A DNA stretch of 64,000 bases from Candidatus Eiseniibacteriota bacterium (lineage in GTDB: Bacteria > Orphanbacterota > Orphanbacteria > Orphanbacterales > Orphanbacteraceae). The stretch lies in NCBI GenBank assembly GCA_024276995.1, contig JAJRWB010000023.1, positions 1 to 64,000 on the forward strand. Direction: 5' to 3'. This document shows, piece after piece, positions 7,542-11,114 of this stretch (its first letter is position 1; the number at the start of each line of letters is the position of its first letter). The notes below the pieces were generated by a model that worked only from the letters and a program-made list of their open reading frames with translations, made no database searches and was not told the DNA's origin. A program made the translations under genes and the position numbers.

Positions 7542-7675
7542 GAGGGGAGAGACGGATCGGCGCGGCGACGGGTGTTGCCGCGCTCGGCGGGAAGCGGTGG
7601 AGAAGAATGGAGGATCTTTCCCGCCGATCGGATATGATCGACGAGCCGGAATCGTCCGGACCGGAAAGGGGATCG

Positions 7676-8941
7676 ATGGCGGGCTTATCGAGATGGAAGG
7701 GGACGCCGCTTCTGCTGGCGGGAGTTTTCGCCGCGGCGACTGTGTGTGTCTGCCGGGGCGGCGACATGGCGCGGAAGGCGTGGTCCGGGACGACGGGGAA
7801 TGAGAACGTGGAACCCCTCACGAAGCACTGGGAGAAGGTCATCCCGTACCAGGCTCCGCCGGAAGACCTTTCGTCGATCTCCGCCGAGGAGTGCGGGGAA
7901 TGCCATGAAGATATCTACGCGGAATGGAAAAGCTCCTTTCATGCCGTCGCGTGGGAAGATCCGCAATTTCAGTCGGAATGGGCCAAAGGGGATTCCCTTT
8001 GGGTCTGTATCAACTGCCACATTCCCCTCGAAAATCAGCAGCCCTACATCGTGACCGGGAAGATCGACGGCGACTATTTCCGTCCGGTGAAACGGAAGAA
8101 CCCGAGATACGATCCCCTGCTGCGCGAGGAATCGATCACCTGCGCCGTCTGCCATATCCGGGACGGTGCGGTCATCGGGCCGTTCGCCGATCCCGTGGAT
8201 GCGCCCCACGTGGTGAAGCAGGATACGGTTTTTCTCTCCCGCCGGATCTGTTTCGGCTGCCACAATGTGACCGATGTGATCGATCGGTCGCTCGTGTGTG
8301 TGTTCAACACCGGCAACGAGTGGAACGAGGGGCCTTACCGGGCGGCGGGCCGCGACTGCATCGTCTGTCACATGCCGGAGATCGAAAGACCCCTGGTAGC
8401 GGGAGGTCCGATCCGGAAAACCCGCAAGCACACCTGGATCGGTTCGGGCATCCCGAAATACTCGGCCGGGGAGGTGGAAGAGGTCGCGCCCGTCCCGGGA
8501 TACGTTCGCGCCATGGACGTCCGGGTCCACTCGAGCCGGGAGCTGTACGGTCCCGGCGATGACGCCTATCTTTCGGTCACCCTGATCAATCAGCGCGCCG
8601 GCCACACCATCCCCACCGGCGACCCGGAGTATTTCTACACTTTACGGATGGATGCCGTCGATACGGCCGGCCGCAGCCTCAAGAGCGTGGCCCACCGAAT
8701 CGGCCAGGAGTGGACTTGGTGGCCGGCGGCGGAAAAGACGGGCGACAACCGCCTCGACCCGCTCGAAAGCCGCACATATTCATTCATGATTCGAATACCG
8801 GATCGCCCGGAAAGGATCCGTTTCGAGGTGCGATTGGTGGTGCACCGGATTACCGGGGAAAACGCCGCCTTCAACGATCTGCCGGGACATTATCCGCTTT
8901 CGGCGTTGATATTTGAAAAGACAATGGAATTGAATCGATAA
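7676..8941 (+). CDS. Five-heme cytochrome c (cytochrome c-554-like)
   Basis: 421 aa. A signal sequence with Cys residues near its end (CVC at 24-26) could be a lipoprotein signal. Five CxxCH heme-attachment motifs follow at residues 73-77 (CGECH), 111-115 (CINCH), 156-160 (CAVCH), 192-196 (CFGCH) and 228-232 (CIVCH). The C-terminal ~170 residues are beta-rich and heme-free (VHSSRELYGPGDDAYLSV onward). The arrangement resembles the multiheme cytochrome c-554 group, periplasmic electron carriers. The ATG at 7676 has GGAAAGGGG upstream and begins the signal peptide; an in-frame ATG 42 bases earlier is less suitable. Electron donor and acceptor are not evident from the neighbours. Confidence 0.88.
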   Translation: MAGLSRWKGTPLLLAGVFAAATVCVCRGGDMARKAWSGTTGNENVEPLTKHWEKVIPYQAPPEDLSSISAEECGECHEDIYAEWKSSFHAVAWEDPQFQSEWAKGDSLWVCINCHIPLENQQPYIVTGKIDGDYFRPVKRKNPRYDPLLREESITCAVCHIRDGAVIGPFADPVDAPHVVKQDTVFLSRRICFGCHNVTDVIDRSLVCVFNTGNEWNEGPYRAAGRDCIVCHMPEIERPLVAGGPIRKTRKHTWIGSGIPKYSAGEVEEVAPVPGYVRAMDVRVHSSRELYGPGDDAYLSVTLINQRAGHTIPTGDPEYFYTLRMDAVDTAGRSLKSVAHRIGQEWTWWPAAEKTGDNRLDPLESRTYSFMIRIPDRPERIRFEVRLVVHRITGENAAFNDLPGHYPLSALIFEKTMELNR

Positions 8942-8964: not shown

Positions 8965-9164
8965 GGAGAAAGCCCCCCCGCCCATGGTCCGTGAGGTTCC
9001 AGCCCCTCGATGCTGAGCTTGGAGGGACGCCGTAACACGGAGGGGGCAGGGGGCCGATGATCGTGTCATGGGAGGCCGTCCGGCGGAGGAATCCCGCCGC
9101 GTGCGTCCCGGCCGGGAAAGGGCACGGAAGAGGGAGGATCCGGCCGGGCAACCTCATGTAACCG
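8965..9164 (-). ncRNA. Candidate structured small RNA in a gene-free gap
   Basis: The 382 bases between the cytochrome and etfB hold no convincing gene, but a near-consensus minus-strand promoter sits at 9171-9199. The predicted transcript folds strongly. It has a GCCCGGCCGG/CCCGGCCGGG pair, a CGGCGG-CCGCCG hairpin, and a long helix joining GGCCCCCTGCCCCC-TCCGTG to CACGGA-(CCAT)-GGGCGGGGGGGC. That helix is followed directly by CTTTCTCC, so a length near 190-200 nt is expected. It lacks recognisable tmRNA, RNase P, SRP or tRNA motifs. A 6S-like regulator or an uncharacterised sRNA are both open. Ends are estimates from the promoter and the helix. Confidence 0.4.
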
Positions 9165-9170
9165 GCGCAT

Positions 9171-9199
9171 ATTATAGCAGTTCGCCCGCCGAAAAGCAA
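9171..9199 (-). promoter_or_regulatory. Strong leftward promoter with extended -10
   Basis: On the minus strand TTGCTT (9194-9199), 17 bases, then TGC-TATAAT (9171-9176). This is among the best promoters in the window, yet no credible coding gene follows it before the antisense end of the cytochrome gene. Confidence 0.6.
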
Positions 9200-9240
9200 G
9201 CAAGAATACGATAAACAGCACGAAATCCCCTAAACAGAAC

Positions 9241-9323: not shown

Positions 9324-10112
9324 ATGAAGACGATTGTGTTTATCAAGGAGGTTCCCGAAACCCCCGATGGGGTAAAGATTTCCGATTCGGGACAGCTGGC
9401 CGTTGATGGTGACCGTGCGTTTCTCACCGACCCGATCGATCCTTACTCGGTGGAAACGGCGCTGAAGATCCGCGAGGAGAAGGGGGGCGAGGTGATCGTC
9501 GTCTCCGCCGGCTCCACGAGGGCGGAGAAGTTCCTGAAGGAGGCGCTCGCCATGGGGGCGGACGAGGCGGTTCTCCTATCGGGCGCCGAAATCGAGGGGG
9601 GCGACCCGACGGCGACCGCACGCGCGCTCGCCGCCGCCGTCCGGAAATCAGGCGATTTCGACCTCTTGGTGGTCGGGGATCGCGCCGCCGACGACAACTC
9701 GGCGGTGGTCGGTCCCGTCCTCGGCCAGCTTCTCGATATACCCGTTCTAACATATGTAAGCGAGGTCCGGGAGGTCGACGCCGACACGATCCGCGTGGTC
9801 CGCACCCTGGAGAAGGGGCGGGAGGTGGTGGAATCGTCGCTACCCGCGGTCGTATCGGTGGTGAAGGGGATTCACGAGCCTCGTTATCCCTCCCTCCTCG
9901 GCATACGCAAGGCTTCCAAGAGGGAAGTGCCCAAGTGGACCGCCGCCGATCTCGGCGAAGATCCAGCCCGGCTCGGTGCGGCGGGATCGCCGACGCGGAT
10001 GAGGAGCCTCGCTCCGCCTCCGGCGCCGTCGGGAGTCGAAATGATCGAAGGGGAGGTCGAAGAGGCGGCGAAGACGCTGGTGGCGAAGATTATCGACCGA
10101 AAGGTCCTCTAA
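9324..10112 (+). CDS. etfB: Electron transfer flavoprotein beta subunit
   Basis: 262 aa, the usual length for EtfB. EtfA/EtfB carries electrons from acyl-CoA and related dehydrogenases to the quinone pool through ETF dehydrogenase. The N-terminus IVFIKEVPETPDGVKI and the nucleotide-binding middle (LLVVGDRAADDNSAVVGPVL) fit the family, with the C-terminal arm that wraps EtfA. The ATG at 9324 has GGAGGA four bases upstream; the upstream in-frame extension covers the promoter and was rejected. etfA follows after 18 bases. No acyl-CoA dehydrogenase or etf-QO gene is in the window. Confidence 0.95.
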   Translation: MKTIVFIKEVPETPDGVKISDSGQLAVDGDRAFLTDPIDPYSVETALKIREEKGGEVIVVSAGSTRAEKFLKEALAMGADEAVLLSGAEIEGGDPTATARALAAAVRKSGDFDLLVVGDRAADDNSAVVGPVLGQLLDIPVLTYVSEVREVDADTIRVVRTLEKGREVVESSLPAVVSVVKGIHEPRYPSLLGIRKASKREVPKWTAADLGEDPARLGAAGSPTRMRSLAPPPAPSGVEMIEGEVEEAAKTLVAKIIDRKVL

Positions 10113-10130: not shown

Positions 10131-11114
10131 ATGTCACGTTCCATCTGGGTCATTGCAGAGCGCGGCGCGTCAGGTGTCTCGCGCACAACGAAGGAAATCC
10201 TCGGCAAGGCGGGTGAACTCGCCGGCGAAGGGGGGATGACCGCCGTCTACTGCGGTGCGGACGCCTCCGGAATCGCCGAAGAATTGCAACGGTACGGCGC
10301 AGGGCGTGTTTGTCTCCTCGTGGACGGCGCATTCGAACATTACAACGCCGACCAGTTCGTCCATGCCCTGGCGGCGCTGGCGCGGGAGAAGGATCCCGAG
10401 ATCATTCTCGTGCCGGGGAGCATGAACGGAAGGGAACTCGCGGCGGCCCTCGCGGCGGCCCTCGGCGGCGGCGCGGTCCAAGAATGTATCGACATCCGCC
10501 GCGACGGCGATGCCGTTCTCGCCGACCGCGCCTTCCTCGGCGGCAACCTCACCGCGGTGGTGGAAAACCGTTCGGAAGGGCCGAAGGTCTTCTCCGTCAG
10601 GCCGAAGGCGTTCCCCCTTCCGGCGGAGGACGCCGGCAATGCGGCAGACATCGAAGAGGTGACACCCGTGCTCCGCGAGGGAGGGTCGCGGACGAAGAGG
10701 GTGGAGTTCCTCGCCGACGAGGGGAAGACGGTGAACCTCACCGACGCCGACGTGATCGTTTCGGGCGGGCGGGGACTCGGGACGGCCGAGGGTTTCGACG
10801 TGATCCGCGAACTCGCCGACGTTCTCGGTGGCGCGGTCGGCGCGTCGCGCGCCGTGGTGGACAACGGCTGGATCTCCTATCCTCACCAGGTGGGCCAAAC
10901 CGGGAAGACGGTGAAGCCGAAGCTCTACATCGCCTGCGGCATTTCGGGCGCCATCCAACACCTCGCCGGCATGCGCACATCCGATACGATCGTTGCGATC
11001 AACAAGGACGAGAACGCGCCGATCTTCAAGGTCGCCCATTTCGGAATCGTGGGGGATCTCTTCGAAGTGGTACCGCAGCTGACCGCACGGTTCCGGGAGG
11101 CGCTTCAAGGTTGA
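10131..11114 (+). CDS. etfA: Electron transfer flavoprotein alpha subunit
   Basis: 327 aa. The N-terminal domain is followed by the FAD-binding C-terminal domain, with the family signature around [37 protein letters not shown] and [20 protein letters not shown]. It pairs with EtfB to form the FAD-containing heterodimer in the cytoplasm. The start has a GGGAGAAG ribosome site. The gene ends 25 bases from the convergent sulfatase-like gene. Confidence 0.96.

Follow-up and report, generated by a model that had tools for sequence, protein, structure and literature searches.

A predicted small structured RNA gene divergent from etfB in an uncultured bacterial phylum

What is transcribed, if anything, from a promoter-like sequence that lies beside the electron transfer flavoprotein gene etfB and points away from it into DNA with no credible gene? 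The element is located on the minus strand (9199-8965) of the 64,000-nucleotide stretch analyzed here, hereafter the window, and a first-pass annotation of that DNA had proposed a promoter-driven, structured non-coding element outside the RNA families recognizable by eye. This proposal is supported by a comparison of seven genomes of an uncultured phylum, which represent five genera of one family (G000 being the genome of the window), as both promoter and structure are conserved, the latter with covariation, and Rfam gives no match. Each of the seven has a counterpart oriented divergently to etfB, and at the DNA level the conservation comprises a sigma70 extended -10 promoter, an A/T-rich upstream element, a core of 90-120 nt and a T-rich tail. 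Based on these comparisons we consider that the minus strand between 9199 and 8965 is very likely, with a probability of roughly 0.88, to be a stand-alone small structured RNA gene of a family absent from Rfam. The features discussed below are collected in Table 1.

Table 1. Coordinates of the putative small-RNA gene, its parts and neighbors in the window, and of housekeeping RNAs elsewhere in the same genome (G000).
Feature	Position	Strand	Basis or remark
A/T-rich element TTTATCGTATTCTTGC, directly 5' of the -35, UP-element position	9200-9215	-	conserved TTTA
sigma70-type extended -10 promoter	9171-9199	-	layout kept in 7/7 genomes
TTGCTT (-35)	9199-9194	-	17-nt spacer, then -10
TGC at spacer end	9179-9177	-	read from sequence
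TATAAT (-10)	9176-9171	-	predicted start near 9164
5' hairpin between promoter and conserved core	9062-9163	-	private to the window genome
Conserved small-RNA core	8965-9059	-	covariance model match and covariation
P1 5' arm (CCCCCTGCCC)	9044-9053	-	folds of all members, P1 covariation
P2 5' arm (TCCGTG)	9036-9041	-	folds, covariation
Apical hairpin P3	9002-9028	-	centroid fold; arms about 9028-9022 and 9008-9002
P2 3' arm (CACGGA)	8988-8993	-	folds, covariation
P1 3' arm (GGGCGGGGGG)	8974-8983	-	folds, covariation
T-rich tail CTTTCTCC after P1	8965-8972	-	terminator-like but weak in the window
Multiheme cytochrome gene, convergent	7607-8941	+	Pfam
etfB (electron transfer flavoprotein), divergent neighbor	9324-10112	+	Pfam ETF, E 9e-37
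etfA, after etfB	10131-11114	+	gene order
6S RNA (RF00013)	G000:C71:944-1127		60.1 bits
SRP RNA (RF00169)	G000:C12:78076-78176		
RNase P RNA (RF00010)	contig C75		
tmRNA (RF00023)	contig C49		

Promoter and relatives of the element

The promoter originally read by eye as TTGCTT-17-TGC-TATAAT was recovered on the minus strand (9199-9171), and its layout recurs in all seven genomes: TTG is followed by a spacer of 17 nt that carries TG one base ahead of the -10, and the -10 hexamer reads TATAAT, GATAAT, CATAAT, CATACT or CATGCT. Judged by sequence only, the element thus has the promoter of its own that characterizes an independently transcribed small RNA. A single occurrence of the motif TGNTATAAT was counted in the 64-kb window, where 0.13 would be expected. 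The -35 of the window is poor, and a generic promoter scan of the window did not list the promoter at 9199-9171, because TTGCTT matches TTGACA at only three of six positions. A TTTA is found 16-18 nt before the -35 in every genome, as TTTATC in six of the seven, and in G004, with etfB about 1.1 kb distant, the upstream element is still found at the RNA promoter, which indicates that it is part of the RNA gene rather than of etfB. The predicted RNA is probably transcribed, strongly and constitutively.

A DNA search with the whole gap over 60 genomes gave no match outside the window's own genome, because the RNA is too diverged, and only the comparison of gene order around etfB revealed the relatives, whose copies were located by examining, genome by genome, the DNA upstream of etfB. 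The element reads CCTCCTGCCTCCCTCGTG...CACGAGCCAAGGGCGGGAGG in G003 and G006 and is similar in G002, and the copies of G000, G004, G001 and G005 are more diverged. A covariance model built from G002, G003 and G006 only (R1), with the window left out, finds the window core exactly (9059-8965, minus strand; 35.8 bits, E 3e-7), this being the sole match in the window genome (E 1.4e-5 at whole-genome scale), and it also finds the copy of G004 (32.5 bits, E 2e-6). Over 290 genomes R1 matches only G000, G002, G003, G004 and G006, at one place each, beside etfB. A second model that also includes the window and G004 (R2) gave no convincing match outside the phylum over 386 genomes; the one additional hit, in the unrelated genome G272, amounts to no more than a 36-nt hairpin and was rejected. 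The copies of G001 and G005 are not significant with either model (8.3 and 6.3 bits with R2, E 1.9 and 5.9), and they are regarded as putative members of the family on the basis of position, promoter, motif and pairing, not of the model. In fact, they match CCTGCTTCCCTCGTG at 13 of 15 positions, a value reached in one of 2000 shuffles of the region. When 84,980 species genomes were searched with a degenerate pattern, only G004 and G006 were matched within the phylum, and a match in Luteimonas, which scores 7.6 bits with the model, was discarded as chance.

Pairwise comparisons locate the constraint in the core. Between G001 and G005 the core is identical at 87 of 90 positions, with differences only at its edges, and outside it identity amounts to 75% in a 40-nt block overlapping the promoter spacer and to 78% just downstream. 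Likewise, the cores of G003 and G006 share 107 of 112 positions, with flanking blocks ranging from 68% to 98%, the lowest values being found between genes, immediately upstream of the promoter and farther downstream.

Helices of the core and the 5' hairpin

The core of 90-120 nt has the same plan in the seven genomes, and in every member the single-sequence fold has P1 and P2, separated by a small internal loop, and then an apical hairpin region, after which comes the T-rich tail. P1 is long and GC-rich, P2 is of the CUCGUG/CACGAG type, and in five members the internal loop has CC on its 5' side and YCAW on its 3' side. P1 and P2 covary: the P2 arms are TCCGTG/CACGGA in the window and CTCGTG/CACGAG in G002, G003 and G006, and the outer part of P1 has a different sequence in G001 and G005 (GGAGC/GCUCC) with its pairing kept. 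The compensatory changes that the first-pass annotation suggested seeking in the same gap of relatives are therefore present in both helices. In a structural alignment of five sequences, which was adjusted to the structure and is biased in its favor, standard pairs make up 96.5% of the pair cells against 41-53% with slid partners, and in six pairs both partners have changed, compared with 2.7 pairs in shuffles that ignore relatedness. MAFFT alone shifts the P1 3' arm of G001 and G005 by one base, and owing to this misalignment the RNAalifold counts on the MAFFT alignment were not used. The position of P3 is common to the relatives but its sequence is not well aligned; no covariation was found among the three sequences aligned there, in which P3 is invariant, and this hairpin is consequently supported by folding only.

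Several long complementary arms had been noticed in the stretch, and two large hairpins are indeed predicted, of which only the second (9059-8965) is conserved. The first folds at -47.2 kcal/mol (z -2.4), and a DNA search of the rest of its genome and of 59 others did not find it again. From the -10 to the conserved CTGC there are 121 nt in the window genome and 20-39 nt in the six relatives; the extra stretch corresponds to this private hairpin, and the conserved RNA is thus limited to 9059-8965. The window genome carries an added private hairpin of about 100 nt at the 5' end of the RNA, and its transcript would include it as about half of the proposed length.

Folding by itself is weak evidence for an RNA in the window, where the 3' core has a z of -2.6 (-3.2 to -4.3 for the cores of the relatives) and the whole 216-nt stretch, at -1.8, is only slightly better than shuffles. 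Since GC-rich sequence folds easily and the stretch sits just past the stop of the convergent cytochrome gene, it could be asked whether we are dealing with a mere terminator or GC-rich palindrome between converging genes, preceded by a chance promoter. We regard this as very improbable, because interior sequence and helices are conserved, the helices covary and the same promoter lies upstream in seven genomes, and because the convergent cytochrome gene is absent at this place in G001, G003 and G004.

The structure is conserved in the absence of a shared reading frame, as seen from the covariance model, the folds, the covariation and a frame scan. Open frames do exist on the minus strand, the one starting at TTG 9199 having 139 aa, and a short coding gene might be hidden among them; yet no Pfam match was obtained, the P2 arms are spaced by about 40, 42, 63 and 65 nt, values whose differences are not divisible by three, no ATG-started and stop-closed frame of at least 12 aa lies inside any predicted transcript, and the changes fit pairing, not codons. 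The earlier statement that the stretch holds no credible gene stands: the frame opened by the ATG that follows the -10 is 34 aa long and is found in no relative, and the conserved protein whose presence there would have spoken against an RNA was not found. That ATG had been placed a few bases after the predicted start; it precedes the predicted start of the transcript. A coding gene is in our view extremely improbable.

Genomic context, 3' end and known RNA families

In all seven genomes etfB is next to the RNA, in G004 within about 1.1 kb. The extra sequence of about 1.1 kb between both in G004 has a long inverted repeat (CTGGGGACACAATACGTAACTC...GAGTTACGTATTGTATCCCCAG) and resembles a mobile or repetitive element of small size. 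On the other side, the cytochrome gene of the window is MtrC/MtrF-like, with cytochrome c7/c554 Pfam matches, and occupies the place of a PDZ-domain gene of G001, G003 and G004; in G000, G001 and G004 the genes that come next, for a 4HBT thioesterase and QueC, keep a common order. A second hairpin, AAGGGGAG...CTCCCCTTCGGCTGATCTC, is found downstream of the RNA in G002, G003 and G006 (at about 2635-2690 in L006, with L007 and L008 having it at the equivalent position), and none was observed in the window. This hairpin may be another element, or it may terminate something else.

The last helix had been described as ending in CTTTCTCC, and this is the case at 8972-8965 of the minus strand. The tails of the relatives read TTTTTTT (G002, G005), CTTTTTCT (G001) and CCTTTTCG (G006), so that the T-tract is good in G001, G002 and G005, whereas the window tail has few T's, and a generic scanner listed no intrinsic terminator at the 3' end of the window RNA. 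Given the T-rich tail that follows it, P1 probably doubles as an intrinsic terminator.

A terminator-like P1 plus tail would also suit a cis-regulatory leader, that is, a riboswitch or attenuator of a downstream gene, ancestrally the PDZ-domain gene, in which P1 acts as the terminator. Such a same-strand gene follows in G001, G003 and G004 and, by reading of the DNA, in G002, G005 and G006. In the window, however, the next gene is convergent (7607-8941, plus strand) and the PDZ-domain gene is absent from that place, so that the element is not the 5' region of a co-directional gene under its control, although promoter and RNA are kept. Moreover, the distance from the RNA to the PDZ-domain gene ranges from about 0.1 kb to several hundred nucleotides, and inspection by eye revealed no alternative pairing that would form an antiterminator. 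A leader is accordingly judged improbable. Being kept without the downstream PDZ-domain gene in the window genome and with etfB about 1.1 kb off in G004, the RNA seems to be a unit of its own, and its status as a stand-alone small-RNA gene is well supported by the comparison of sequences.

Size, strong promoter, single copy and conservation throughout the phylum are also what one would find if the element were a divergent or missing copy of 6S RNA, SRP RNA, RNase P RNA, tmRNA or Y RNA. We hold this to be scarcely credible. The first four are all found elsewhere in the genome, in line with the earlier remark that tmRNA, RNase P and SRP do not match here, and for these four the explanation is refuted; a TROVE/Ro protein, the partner of Y RNAs, is found in none of the seven genomes. 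The search with Rfam models including 6S that had been recommended gave no match in the window at the gathering score, and at permissive thresholds only chance matches in the window and its relatives. The 6S RNA of this phylum scores 36-69 bits, near or below the Rfam cut-off in several members, and automated annotation will therefore miss some. Like 6S RNA, the element is small, structured and present in single copy, and a long terminal helix closes it, but it is shorter and has a small internal loop in place of the large open-promoter-like bubble. The architecture of the element is shared by bacterial Y RNAs, which measure about 100 nt, pair at their ends and contain an internal loop; the difference lies in the Ro protein, not found here. 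The evidence is of the same kind as that for candidate RNA motifs from comparative genomics (e.g. Weinberg et al. 2010, PMC2864571), namely a conserved non-coding structure with covariation, but the RNA described here matches no Rfam member. In the literature searched, no etfB-linked intergenic small RNA of this kind is described.

A possible mode of action

Regulation in trans without Hfq is the preferred but unproven role. Hfq was found in none of the seven genomes, in a search whose positive controls worked, and the RNA does not fall among the Hfq-dependent small RNAs. We hypothesize that it could act as a trans-regulatory RNA in which the likeliest contact surface would be the strand CUGCYYYCC(C)UCGUG, which is conserved, rich in pyrimidines and complementary to purine-rich ribosome-binding sites. 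Such an anti-Shine-Dalgarno mechanism is put forward tentatively and is itself somewhat doubtful. The conserved strand is C-rich, yet mostly paired inside P1 and P2, and perfect or near-perfect complements of the conserved 5' strand were no more frequent than matches to a reversed-pattern control. Among the matches listed for the genomes shown, the perfect complement in G001, G002, G004 and G005 corresponds to the RNA gene itself, and the window genome has one extra perfect match (G000:C81:18953), about 60 nt before a possible start codon.

In the Firmicutes, RoxS and FsrA bind their targets via C-rich regions, and etfB is among the known targets of RoxS (PMC8216469). The RNA resembles these trans-acting small RNAs, RoxS/RsaE and FsrA, in being small, stand-alone and structured, with pyrimidine- or C-rich stretches complementary to ribosome-binding sites, and differs in belonging to another phylum, in the lack of a sequence or Rfam match, and in that its C-rich strand is largely inside P1/P2. 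The parallel between RoxS and etfB should be taken as a resemblance and not as a test.

The main alternative mode would be a bound protein partner. A near-universal RNA of protein-binding or housekeeping type, conserved phylum-wide under a dedicated strong promoter and not acting by base pairing, could play a part like that of 6S or Y RNA with an unrelated sequence, a role that we consider unlikely.

With regulation in trans as the preferred role, the element is a concrete and testable candidate for a small-RNA gene in an uncultured phylum without detected Hfq, conserved beside electron transfer flavoprotein genes. The comparison of seven genomes has turned a structure spotted by eye in one of them into a family, and it yields a covariance model, a promoter and predicted ends that may be sought in metatranscriptomes.
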